NCBI GenBank assembly: GCA_016931655.1
Contig: JAFGEJ010000120.1
Span: forward strand, 1 to 32,723
From: Phycisphaerae bacterium
GTDB lineage: Bacteria > Planctomycetota > Phycisphaerae > SM23-33
DNA length: 32,723 bases
Direction: 5' to 3'
Shown here: positions 14,243-21,939 of the stretch, piece by piece
How the letters are laid out: each line of letters starts with the position of its first letter
How positions within the stretch are numbered: the stretch's first letter is position 1
The notes under the pieces: model-generated
Told to the model about the DNA's origin: nothing
Databases searched by the model: none
What the model saw: only the letters and a program-made list of their open reading frames with translations
Translations under genes and position numbers: made by a program

Positions 14243-16009
14243 ATGAAAAGAACGGTGATTGAAATAAATCGACATGTTGTGTTTCGTATGACGGCGTTGC
14301 TGCTGGCGGGGGCGTGTTTTTCCGCCCAGCCGTCCGCCGTCGCGGACGAGGCGCCGGGCGGTGCGCAAAAGCGAACCATTTCGCGTCGCCAACTGGACAA
14401 AGCCGTCAAACTCGGCCTGTGGCGCCTGGCCGGGCGAACCTCCCGCACCGGCCGAGTTGCCAGCCGGGCGTATCGCTACCAGGACGGCGGAATCGAGGCC
14501 CTGGTCGCCTTAGCGGCCCTGGAGGCCGGCGGCGACCCCCGCTCACCGGGCCTGCGCGTCCTCCTGAAGCGCCTGGCGAAGCGATCCCCCGAACGGACAG
14601 CCGCCCGCGCCCTGCGGGCGATGGTCTACGCCCGCCTGGGCAAATCCCGCCGCAGGTTGCTCCGCGACGACGTGCAATGGCTCCTTCACGCCCAACGCGA
14701 CGACGGCGGTTGGGGCGAAACGCCTTCGGCGCCTTGTGACGTGTTCGACGGCGCCCTGGCGATGCTGGCGCTGGGACAGGCCGACCGGCTTGGGGCAGCC
14801 ACGCCCACGTCGGCGTGGGATCGCGCCAAGCAGTTCCTGTTGGCCGCCCAGAATCCCGACGGCGGATACGGCTATCAATATGCACCGGGAGAGACGCCCC
14901 GCCTGCGGGGCTTTTCCAATGGTTCCGCGACCGCCGCGGCTGCCGTCATGTGGAGCGTCCTGATCGACCGCAAGCAACTCCCTCCGCCCGGGGACGTGGA
15001 AAACCACCTGTGGAAATGCTTCCTGCGGACGGCCCACTGGCTGGAGGGGCACTTCAACATCCAGGCCGTGCCCGAATGGTACTGGGGCGACGCGCCGGAA
15101 CACGCCTACCGTTACCTTCTGCTGCTGGCGGCGCCGTCGCTGACGGCCTCGCGCAGCCAGTGGGCGCATCTACCGGGACAGTTGGCCGCCTTTCTGCTGG
15201 ATAGCCGAAAGCCCGAAGAGGAATCCTGGGCGACGCAGCCTCTGGCCGAGGACGACGCGGTGGCCGCGGCCTGGTACGTCCTGACGCTCTGCCGCGCCCG
15301 GCAGGAACTGCTAGCCGCCCAGCCCGAACCGACCAAAATCGCACCGGCCTTCCACCCCGGTATGCTGCTGCTGGTCGGACGCATCCACCACGCCGGCGAT
15401 TGGAACGCGCAGGAGCATACCGAAGATCGCTGGTCCGAAGCACTGGCAGCCGCGGTCAGCGTGGGCTTAAAGCGGCAGGACGTTTTCGCGGGGCAGGATT
15501 ACAATCCAGGCGTGGCGATGGTGCACTTAACGGGCACGCGGCTGGAGGGGTTCGGCGCGCCGGCAAGGGCGGCGCTGAAGACGTATCTCCAGCGCGGCGG
15601 CATGGTGCTGATCGACCCAGCCGCCGGCGGGCGGGAATTTTTCGACCAGGCGCGGGACATGCTGGTGCGAATGTTCGGGCCGGGGTCGATTACGCTCCTT
15701 CCGCCGGACGATCCGCTGGTCACGGGCCGATTCGCCGGCGACGTCGGCAGCAACTTATCCGCCGTACGGCTGACGCCCGCCGCCGCCCAACACGCCGGCC
15801 GAGCCCAGGGTCCGCCGATTCTGTGGGTGGTGAAAGACCAGGGCCGAATCGTCGCCGTGCTCAGCCGCTATTCGCTGGCCGTCCCGTCGGCCGAGGCGCC
15901 CTCCGATCCACCAGCCGGCTACGACCCCGCCGACGCCCAACGCATCGCCATCAACGTCCTGCTCTACACCTACGCCGCCAGACAGCAGGGACTGGGAACT
16001 GGGGATTAG
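14243..16009 (+). CDS. Exported protein with squalene-cyclase/prenyltransferase-like alpha-alpha repeats and C-terminal DUF4159-like domain
   Basis: VQWLLHAQRDDGGWGETPSAPCDVFDGALAMLAL; FLLAAQNPDGGYGYQYAPGETP; MVHLTGTRLEGFGAPARAALKTYLQRGGMVLIDPAAGGREFFDQ. Confidence 0.8.
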   Translation: MKRTVIEINRHVVFRMTALLLAGACFSAQPSAVADEAPGGAQKRTISRRQLDKAVKLGLWRLAGRTSRTGRVASRAYRYQDGGIEALVALAALEAGGDPRSPGLRVLLKRLAKRSPERTAARALRAMVYARLGKSRRRLLRDDVQWLLHAQRDDGGWGETPSAPCDVFDGALAMLALGQADRLGAATPTSAWDRAKQFLLAAQNPDGGYGYQYAPGETPRLRGFSNGSATAAAAVMWSVLIDRKQLPPPGDVENHLWKCFLRTAHWLEGHFNIQAVPEWYWGDAPEHAYRYLLLLAAPSLTASRSQWAHLPGQLAAFLLDSRKPEEESWATQPLAEDDAVAAAWYVLTLCRARQELLAAQPEPTKIAPAFHPGMLLLVGRIHHAGDWNAQEHTEDRWSEALAAAVSVGLKRQDVFAGQDYNPGVAMVHLTGTRLEGFGAPARAALKTYLQRGGMVLIDPAAGGREFFDQARDMLVRMFGPGSITLLPPDDPLVTGRFAGDVGSNLSAVRLTPAAAQHAGRAQGPPILWVVKDQGRIVAVLSRYSLAVPSAEAPSDPPAGYDPADAQRIAINVLLYTYAARQQGLGTGD

Positions 16010-16041
16010 GGACTGGGGACTAGCAGCCCGTTTAGAAAGTG

Positions 16042-16218
16042 TCGCGGGCATCCTGCCCGCGAGTACCGAGGGCATCTTGCCCTCGGGATGACCTTATTTT
16101 CGCGGCCAAGATGGCCGCGATACGCGCGGGCGAGACGCCCGCGACACGAACCCATCACCCGGCCTACAAGGCCGGGCCTAAACCCGCCTACGGCGGGGGA
16201 AGGGTTGTAAACAACCCT
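16042..16218. repeat. Array of seven consecutive perfect short hairpins, mostly with 3-nt loops
   Basis: TCGCGGGCA-TCC-TGCCCGCGA; CCGAGGGCA-TCT-TGCCCTCGG; TCGCGGCCA-AGA-TGGCCGCGA; CGCGGGCG-AGA-CGCCCGCG; CCCGGCCT-ACA-AGGCCGGG; CCCGCC-TAC-GGCGGG; AGGGTTG-TAAA-CAACCCT. Confidence 0.95.
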
Positions 16219-16252
16219 GAAGAAGATTTTATGGTGAAATAACGAAATAAAC

Positions 16253-16288
16253 GTGGTTACTGCGTCCCTGCGGGACTCCGCGAACCAC
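16253..16288. repeat. Hairpin GTGGTT...AACCAC with core GTCCC-TGC-GGGAC
   Basis: Inverted repeat; near copy of 14193-14228. Confidence 0.75.
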
Positions 16289-16309
16289 GGCACCTGAATC
16301 GTATTAATC

Positions 16310-16939
16310 TTAAGTCGCTTGTTTTTTTATTCCATGCATTTCATAGACTCGACTTTGAGATAAATCTTTCCAGTGACTATGGGAAAAGGAAGGTTCTTCA
16401 CGATCAAATTCTTTGAGAATTTCTTTTCTAACATCTTTCCATAGAGCGAAAATTTGTTCATGGCATTTTTCAGAATCGCAAGACTTATGTCTATCGCCGA
16501 AACTAAGATTTTCAATAAGCAAATAGATGTTTTTTATTGGTTCAAAAGGATACAGACCAACTTTTGAATTATTTTCCCCAAGGTTACAAAAAACCCCGCG
16601 AATTTCATCAATAGCGGTACTGAGTTTAATAAGGGTAGTTAGGTATTGTTCTTCAATCGGGTGTTCAATTCGGGTGTAACAGATAGCAGAATGGACAGCT
16701 TCAATAAGGTTTGACCATAGAGACCTTAATTGTTGTTGGTAAGCATTTCTTCGTTGAACGCAGTAACCTAACCATACGGCTGCAATACCGAGGATCAAAG
16801 GCATGAGACCCGTAAAAGTAGAATACACACTCCTTTGGGGAGTATTGTCGAAGATGCTAATCAAAATACCAGTAATAAGAAGAGCAATGAATATAACGAT
16901 AGCGAGGATGAACCATTTCCTGATAGTTCTCTTCATCAT
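16310..16939 (-). CDS. Hypothetical membrane protein with two predicted N-terminal TM helices and a soluble helical domain, AT-rich
   Basis: MMKRTIRKWFILAIVIFIALLITGILISIFD...YSTFTGLMPLILGIAAVWLGYCVQRR; visibly lower GC than its neighbours. Confidence 0.65.
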   Translation of the reverse strand: MMKRTIRKWFILAIVIFIALLITGILISIFDNTPQRSVYSTFTGLMPLILGIAAVWLGYCVQRRNAYQQQLRSLWSNLIEAVHSAICYTRIEHPIEEQYLTTLIKLSTAIDEIRGVFCNLGENNSKVGLYPFEPIKNIYLLIENLSFGDRHKSCDSEKCHEQIFALWKDVRKEILKEFDREEPSFSHSHWKDLSQSRVYEMHGIKKQAT

Positions 16940-16989: not shown

Positions 16990-17234
16990 AAGTGGCACCT
17001 TCAAGCGAGTTTTTTCTTAAAAACGAGCTTGTGGGTGCTTTTTTGTTCTATGTTTCTTCCTGCTGCCTCTCTGTTTCGCCCTGCGTAGCGGCTCTTTGCT
17101 CTGCGAAGCGCTACGCAAAGCAGAGTCGCAGAGCAGGATTTCCTGCTCCCTGCTGCCTTTCCGGAAAGCACCCACAATCGTCGAGGCGACGATTGAAGGT
17201 GCCACGAACTTGGCGGAGCAGGTGCTCCGCCAAG
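16990..17234. repeat. Nested palindromic composite: GTGGCACCTTCAA/TTGAAGGTGCCAC outer arms, GTGGGTGCTTT/AAAGCACCCAC inner arms, with additional hairpins
   Basis: Arms 16992-17004 with 17193-17205; 17031-17041 with 17165-17175; AATCGTCG-AGG-CGACGATT 17176-17194; CTTGGCGGAGCA/TGCTCCGCCAAG 17209-17234; GAGCAGGA-TT-TCCTGCTC 17131-17148. Confidence 0.85.
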
Positions 17235-19319: not shown

Positions 19320-19342
19320 GGCACAGGTTATAAACCTGTGCC
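19320..19342. repeat. Triloop hairpin GGCACAGGTT-ATA-AACCTGTGCC in the lepA leader
   Basis: Perfect 10-bp stem with 3-nt loop. Confidence 0.85.
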
Positions 19343-21884: not shown

Positions 21885-21939
21885 GGTGGCACAGGGTTTT
21901 AACCTGTGTTTTTGACACAGATTGGAAATCTGTGCCACC
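21885..21939. repeat. Palindrome GGTGGCACAG...CTGTGCCACC containing triloop hairpin CACAGATT-GGA-AATCTGTG, between convergent genes
   Basis: Arms 21885-21894 and 21930-21939; shares the GGCACAGG word with 19320-19342. Confidence 0.85.

Follow-up and report, generated by a model that had tools for sequence, protein, structure and literature searches.

The segment at 16039-16147 of the window (the whole 32,723-nucleotide stretch of Phycisphaerae DNA analyzed here) is best read as a mobile repeat of the non-autonomous kind, a REPIN carrying a pair of hairpins at either end, that would be served by a RAYT (REP-associated tyrosine transposase), a single-strand DNA transposase of the HUH/Y1 class; we put the probability of this reading at roughly 0.8. 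The original prediction had described seven perfect, back-to-back hairpins with different stems at 16042-16218, and all seven are present there with the loops it gave (Table 1). They are real and beyond chance: the window has 8 triloop hairpins with a stem of at least 8 bp where simulated sequence averages 1.2, and a 1.05-Mb sample of the genome holds 332, compared with 27 to 45 under an order-3 Markov null, an enrichment that is inflated because the contigs sampled from the 2.8-Mb total were partly picked for having repeat hits. The outcome named in advance as fatal to the prediction, a lack of enrichment over shuffled sequence, was thus not observed, with intergenic and coding DNA pooled. 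The loops are RGA or its complement TCY in 230 of the 332. "Back-to-back" was a loose term for hairpins that are separated by about 3 to 14 nt, and the stems differ except that hairpins 1 and 4 have CGCGGGC in common.

Table 1. Hairpins and repeats of the window, and the RAYT genes of the same genome that lie within host genes
Feature	Position	Strand	Description
Left arm of outer inverted-repeat frame	16024..16038	+	CAGCCCGTTTAGAAA; right arm missing here
Four-hairpin REPIN-like repeat	16039..16147	+	109 bp; H1, H2, spacer, H3, H4; ends GTGTCGCGGGC...GCCCGCGACAC
Hairpin 1	16042..16062	+	9 bp; TCGCGGGCA(TCC)TGCCCGCGA
Hairpin 2	16066..16086	+	9 bp; CCGAGGGCA(TCT)TGCCCTCGG
Hairpin 3	16100..16120	+	9 bp; TCGCGGCCA(AGA)TGGCCGCGA
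Hairpin 4	16125..16143	+	8 bp; CGCGGGCG(AGA)CGCCCGCG
Solo end of IS200-type element (hairpins 5-7)	16157..16221	+	matches ends of TnpA gene on G000:C273
Hairpin 5	16158-16176		8 bp; loop ACA
Hairpin 6	16183-16197		6 bp; loop TAC
Hairpin 7	16201-16218		7 bp with TAAA loop; 8 bp allowing a 2-nt loop
Third dispersed hairpin repeat	16250..16294	+	CGTGGTT...AACCACG, inner GTCCC/GGGAC; several genome copies
valS RAYT	L121 (G000:C245:113-749) with L166 (G000:C136:1-120)		in-frame fusion, only valS
leuS RAYT	L120 (G000:C242)		in-frame fusion, one contig

What did not survive is the notion of a single seven-hairpin unit. Because 16030-16150 and 16148-16310 match different places in the genome, the cluster marks the junction of two elements, two unrelated mobile-element pieces lying side by side. 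The second of these, hairpins 5-7, is a detached end of an IS200-type element unrelated to hairpins 1-4. On contig C273, the same end sequence stands on both sides of a Y1 transposase gene whose product matches NF033573 at 70.1 bits (cut-off 55); the right end of that element aligns over 16157-16223, with the same hairpin order and shared spacer words, and hairpin 5, inverted, matches its left end. The copy in the window is solo, without a transposase, and a second solo copy lies on C207. In having a Y1 transposase above the family cut-off and hairpin-bearing ends, the element resembles IS200/IS605, from which it differs by carrying three-hairpin ends in inverted copies, where one subterminal hairpin is known. 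Other repeats crowd the neighborhood. The 16250-16294 repeat has copies on C56, C253, C127, and C279; a degenerate GGGACTGGGGACTA-type repeat at 15988-16023 overlaps the end of the DUF4159 reading frame; and a recurrent hairpin, NGGCGGAGC(AGGT or ACCT)GCTCCGCC, occurs at 17209-17234 and also at L111:1256-1331, L102, L125, and L146.

The first piece was found at about 40 places when 16030-16150 was used as query against the 2.8-Mb genome. In all 34 full copies examined, the ends read GTGTCGC...GCGACAC, the GTGT foot being invariant, and 21 of the 34 lie outside ORFs by a crude ORF call, with some of the remainder within ORFs. The layout is that of a doubled REPIN, with two hairpins, a spacer, and two inverted hairpins between GTGT and ACAC. 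The repeat is therefore dispersed, multicopy, and mostly extragenic, as REPs are, and it holds two inverted REPs (H1-H2 against H3-H4) within a unit of about 100 bp, as REPINs do. The canonical REP foot is GTAG; the GTGT found here is absent from the listed foot variants, among which GTGG is accepted, and GTGG, GTGA, and GTGT all occur at RAYT flanks in relatives. Membership in the REP class is likely, and not complete, because the GTAG foot is present only in variant form. Many contigs, including those of L121 and L166, end inside the four-hairpin unit, where repeats break the assembly, and short-read genomes should therefore undercount it.

The original prediction had also pointed to an alternative long fold, and the 11-bp pairing on which it rests does exist, between GTGTCGCGGGC (16039-16049) and GCCCGCGACAC (16137-16147), and forms part of the predicted RNA minimum-energy fold (-141.9 kcal/mol, z -9.3; the predicted fold of the opposite strand likewise has z -9.3). 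The conserved structure is clearly the four local hairpins, however, and not the long fold. Across the 34 aligned copies, 98.8% of local-hairpin cells are paired, and double changes occur at 11 pairs in 47 cells. Shuffling gives 8.5 such cells (0 of 500), and sliding gives no more than 8; the slid controls, unlike the shuffles, account for the relatedness of the copies. The apical pair is swapped among A-T, C-G, and G-C with the TCY/RGA triloop kept. In the same copies the long fold shows no double change at all, and 30 of the 34 cannot form its pair 16-96. The idea that selection acts on one long palindrome was accordingly rejected, and the long fold arises because the hairpin pairs lie inverted. 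Long-hairpin and clover folds have been debated for REPINs also (PMC3116915).

The candidate transposase lies elsewhere in the genome, which has nine Y1_Tnp matches. The RAYT on C245 matches NCBIfam NF047646 at 83.4 bits (cut-off 80), and TnpAREP (4er8) is its best PDB match by profile and by fold. To its left stand GTGTCGCGGGCATCTTGCCCGCG and a second hairpin, that is, a pair of the GTGTCGCGGGC type; to its right an inverted hairpin pair ends in GCCCGCGACAC. The gene is thus flanked on both sides by the same hairpins, arranged as in the 109-bp unit but with the gene in place of the spacer, although the left inner hairpin, GCGAAGGC, differs from H2. It has no free-standing gene, being open in frame within valS: the reading order is N-terminal ValRS, VAGILPA (encoded by the REP), RAYT, REP-encoded peptides, and then the editing domain, where the frame continues on C136 into ITVATTRPETM, the join of C245 and C136 being inferred from shared repeat sequence. 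A second insert, in leuS, occupies the corresponding junction, just ahead of the editing-domain motif (TTRPET/TTRPDT), and translation of the REP hairpins gives the peptides VAGILPA and GTGFQPV. Two hairpins of the window, CACAGGTT(ATA) at 19320-19342, which overlaps the annotated lepA start, and CACAGATT(GGA) at 21916-21934, resemble the hairpins that flank the leuS RAYT, CACAGGTT(GAA). Pfam gives Y1_Tnp alone for the valS insert and no splicing (Hint) domain, and an intein identity was set aside on that ground. An AlphaFold prediction for the ValRS catalytic half, RAYT, and editing domain scored poorly as a whole (pTM 0.34).

Close RAYTs are present in nine further genomes of 60 examined. 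Most lie in valS, in the linker between YPL and TTRPET; the exceptions are L183, in the C-terminal part of valS, and L188, in etfB (named by sequence). In nine genomes, only one locus per genome passes the ValRS model, and it carries the insert. The number of GGGCATCYTGCCC copies follows the presence of the RAYT, with a median of 104 in the ten RAYT genomes and 2 in the fifty others (p about 1e-6, uncorrected for phylogeny), and stem-specific counts agree. Counting against the link, some genomes with no strong RAYT hit, G055 (52) and G002 (32), have moderate motif counts. Only in part does stem use track the local RAYT flanks: GCATGGGC flanks the RAYT of G026, and that genome holds 273 CATGGGC hairpins against 2 in this one, but G016 and G003 have many hairpins of both stem kinds.

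The pattern extends further. Among 85,462 species genomes scanned, the best 80 homologues come from Planctomycetota, Verrucomicrobiota, Armatimonadota, Acidobacteriota, and others, and 50 of these 80 are open in frame for at least 100 residues on both sides. Pfam identifies as hosts Sua5, IspG (GcpE), MetH, AlaRS, and LeuRS, as well as a DEAD/Helicase_C_2 helicase, type ISP and Eco57I-like methylases, a chorismate-binding enzyme, and GH38, in several cases with parts of the host domain on both sides of the RAYT. Embedded loci in other phyla, in sua5, leuS, type ISP methylase genes, ispG, metH, and alaS, include L217, L223, L234, L236, L238, L244, L260, L266, L270, L273, and L275. A binning artefact can be dismissed, since two of the embedded-RAYT records, L266 from Roseibacillus persicicus (metH) and L260 (ispG), are not metagenome-assembled genomes. 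Hairpins with RGA/TCY triloops stand on both sides at 59 of 75 testable RAYT loci, while stretches drawn at random from these loci give a background rate of 2.3% per side. The recurrence of ispG and sua5 among the hosts suggests that these genes hold favored insertion sites.

The insert is under purifying selection, the closest pair having a dN of 0.08 and a dS of 0.72. When trees of RAYT and of ValRS are compared for 19 valS-embedded RAYTs, only 2 of 16 splits are common to both. L206 and L210, grouped with 99/99 support by the RAYT data, are rejected as a group by the ValRS data (p-AU 0.00017); conversely, L199 and L206, grouped 98/95 by the ValRS data, are rejected by the RAYT data (p 0.0017), in tests where the groups were picked after the first trees, the L199 sequence is incomplete, and support for most RAYT branches is weak. 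On this conflict and the AU tests, strictly vertical descent of the embedded RAYT was rejected. The simplest reading is at least one same-site exchange, which suggests that the RAYT has been transferred, at least once, into the same valS site, in contrast to RAYTs elsewhere, which have been described as vertically inherited (PMC8049555).

The setting of the repeat raises the question of whether something other than the RAYT moved it. Three unrelated inverted-repeat arm pairs (TACTACAACGAAAGATC, CAGCCCGTTTAGAAA, and GAGCGTGTATGAAAA) bracket many 109-bp copies (seen at L079, L083, L084, L085, L108, L081, L104, L109, L073, and L080) at a near-constant offset. Two of the three arm sets also carry a second four-hairpin family. 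This GCTTGGGC-type family, GTGGCTTGGGC...GTCCAAGCCAC, is seen at L102:2295-2465, L164:278-426, L163, and L165. It could be argued that classical MITEs carry the unit as cargo, other transposases recognizing the arms and moving it with its hairpins as mere passengers, and the constancy of the brackets, together with the finding that paired frames in the sampled DNA nearly all contain the hairpin core, speaks in favor. We consider this unlikely, since at least three unrelated arm families surround the same core, another core is found within one of the arm families (L102 and L164), and in other genomes core hairpins flank RAYTs with no arms at all. Even so, the frames around so many copies allow that another transposase has contributed to amplification. 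The copy in the window diverges just after 16150, at the IS200-type end, which may have replaced the right arm of the frame or may coincide with its loss; REPs joined to unrelated stem-loops offer a comparable case (PMC3733652).

Less probable still is that the hairpins are RNA elements, a bidirectional terminator or an mRNA 3′-end stabilizer kept for convergent genes. The array likely does lie between convergent genes, as had been proposed: the plus-strand gene at 14243..16009 is supported (DUF4159), and the other half of the claim is the minus-strand ORF at 16310..16939, which has no family match, family searches having also led us to reject it as a transposase. The predicted folds are strong on both strands, and REPs are known downstream of genes (PMC3733652). 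Against this, the bidirectional termination suggested earlier finds no support, the search for a GC hairpin with a T-run giving 1 weak site where 0.7 are expected; copies are dispersed in many contexts, some inside ORFs by the crude call; and recognition of single-stranded DNA accounts equally well for the covariation. An Rfam search of the window returned no family at gathering score. The least probable of these alternatives is that the perfect stems are a mutational artefact, in which template switching during replication corrects imperfect palindromes and neither selection nor recognition is needed. It would fit the exchange of the apical pair as a whole (A-T, C-G, or G-C) with almost no intermediates; it leaves unexplained the dispersal, the 109-bp layout, the conserved triloop, and the flanking of RAYTs in many phyla.

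The preferred reading, a REPIN dependent on a RAYT, suggests a mechanism. Replication would leave the DNA single-stranded, and the unit would fold into four small hairpins. The RAYT, expressed as part of ValRS and presumably tolerated by that enzyme, would recognize a stem with an RGA/TCY triloop and a GTGN foot, and then cut. Hairpin ends could be moved or copied by it without the transposase gene, and insertions would survive between genes or in frame within protein linkers.

The known system closest to this one is that of REPIN/REP doublets and their RAYT (TnpAREP) in Pseudomonas fluorescens SBW25 (PMC3116915), with the GTAG REPs (PMC3733652): short perfect hairpins likewise stand inverted in units of about 100 bp that are dispersed and mainly intergenic, and in REPINs the cognate RAYT is likewise flanked by the same hairpins (PMC3116915). 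The differences are that REPINs have one hairpin per end and here there are two; that the GTAG foot is replaced by GTGT, with an RGA/TCY triloop and an exchangeable apical pair; and that REPIN-associated RAYTs are free genes, whereas this one is inside valS. RAYT subclasses 2.4 and 2.7 (Quentin et al. 2018, PMC6006769), whose REPs bear a GT[AG]G tag and occur in many phyla, have similar NHVH and W[QM] motifs, a comparison made by motif. In subclass 2.4, REPs are inserted in frame within tnpAREP genes (PMC6006769); there the REP is inside the RAYT gene, and here RAYT and REPs together are inside host genes. REPs within genes, including tRNA synthetases and repair genes, and translated in frame, have been described, as have GTGG-tagged repeats of Opitutus terrae (Di Nocera et al. 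2013, PMC3733652); only REPs are reported inside genes in that work, and here the transposase is present too. In the literature searched, with subscription journals mostly outside it, no report of a RAYT inside a tRNA synthetase was found. Like inteins, these are in-frame mobile-element inserts in essential enzymes, at the same site across genera and with conflicting host-gene trees; unlike inteins, they have no Hint domain by Pfam and are flanked by REP hairpins that are translated, and the inserted part is presumably retained in the protein.

It is an even bet, in our estimation, that the array descends from a hitherto unrecognized class of single-strand transposases, resident in frame in essential enzymes (the only ValRS or LeuRS; AlaRS, IspG, MetH, Sua5, and restriction methylases) and moving between genomes into the same site. 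Their hairpin ends would serve as protein linkers, and the host gene would give expression and hinder deletion, a non-splicing, intein-like life. REPs are among the commonest bacterial repeats, and both the way they move and the reason their transposases persist as single copies are unsettled. A model of REPIN persistence assumes that insertion into a gene destroys it (PMC8049555), and here the transposase leaves the frame of the only valS intact. With hairpins, enzyme, and site all defined, this is a concrete system for RAYT activity, expression, and site choice. An earlier survey dropped "unexpectedly long proteins", taking them for fusions or errors of annotation (PMC6006769); long "fusion" records of RAYTs or tRNA synthetases may be real.
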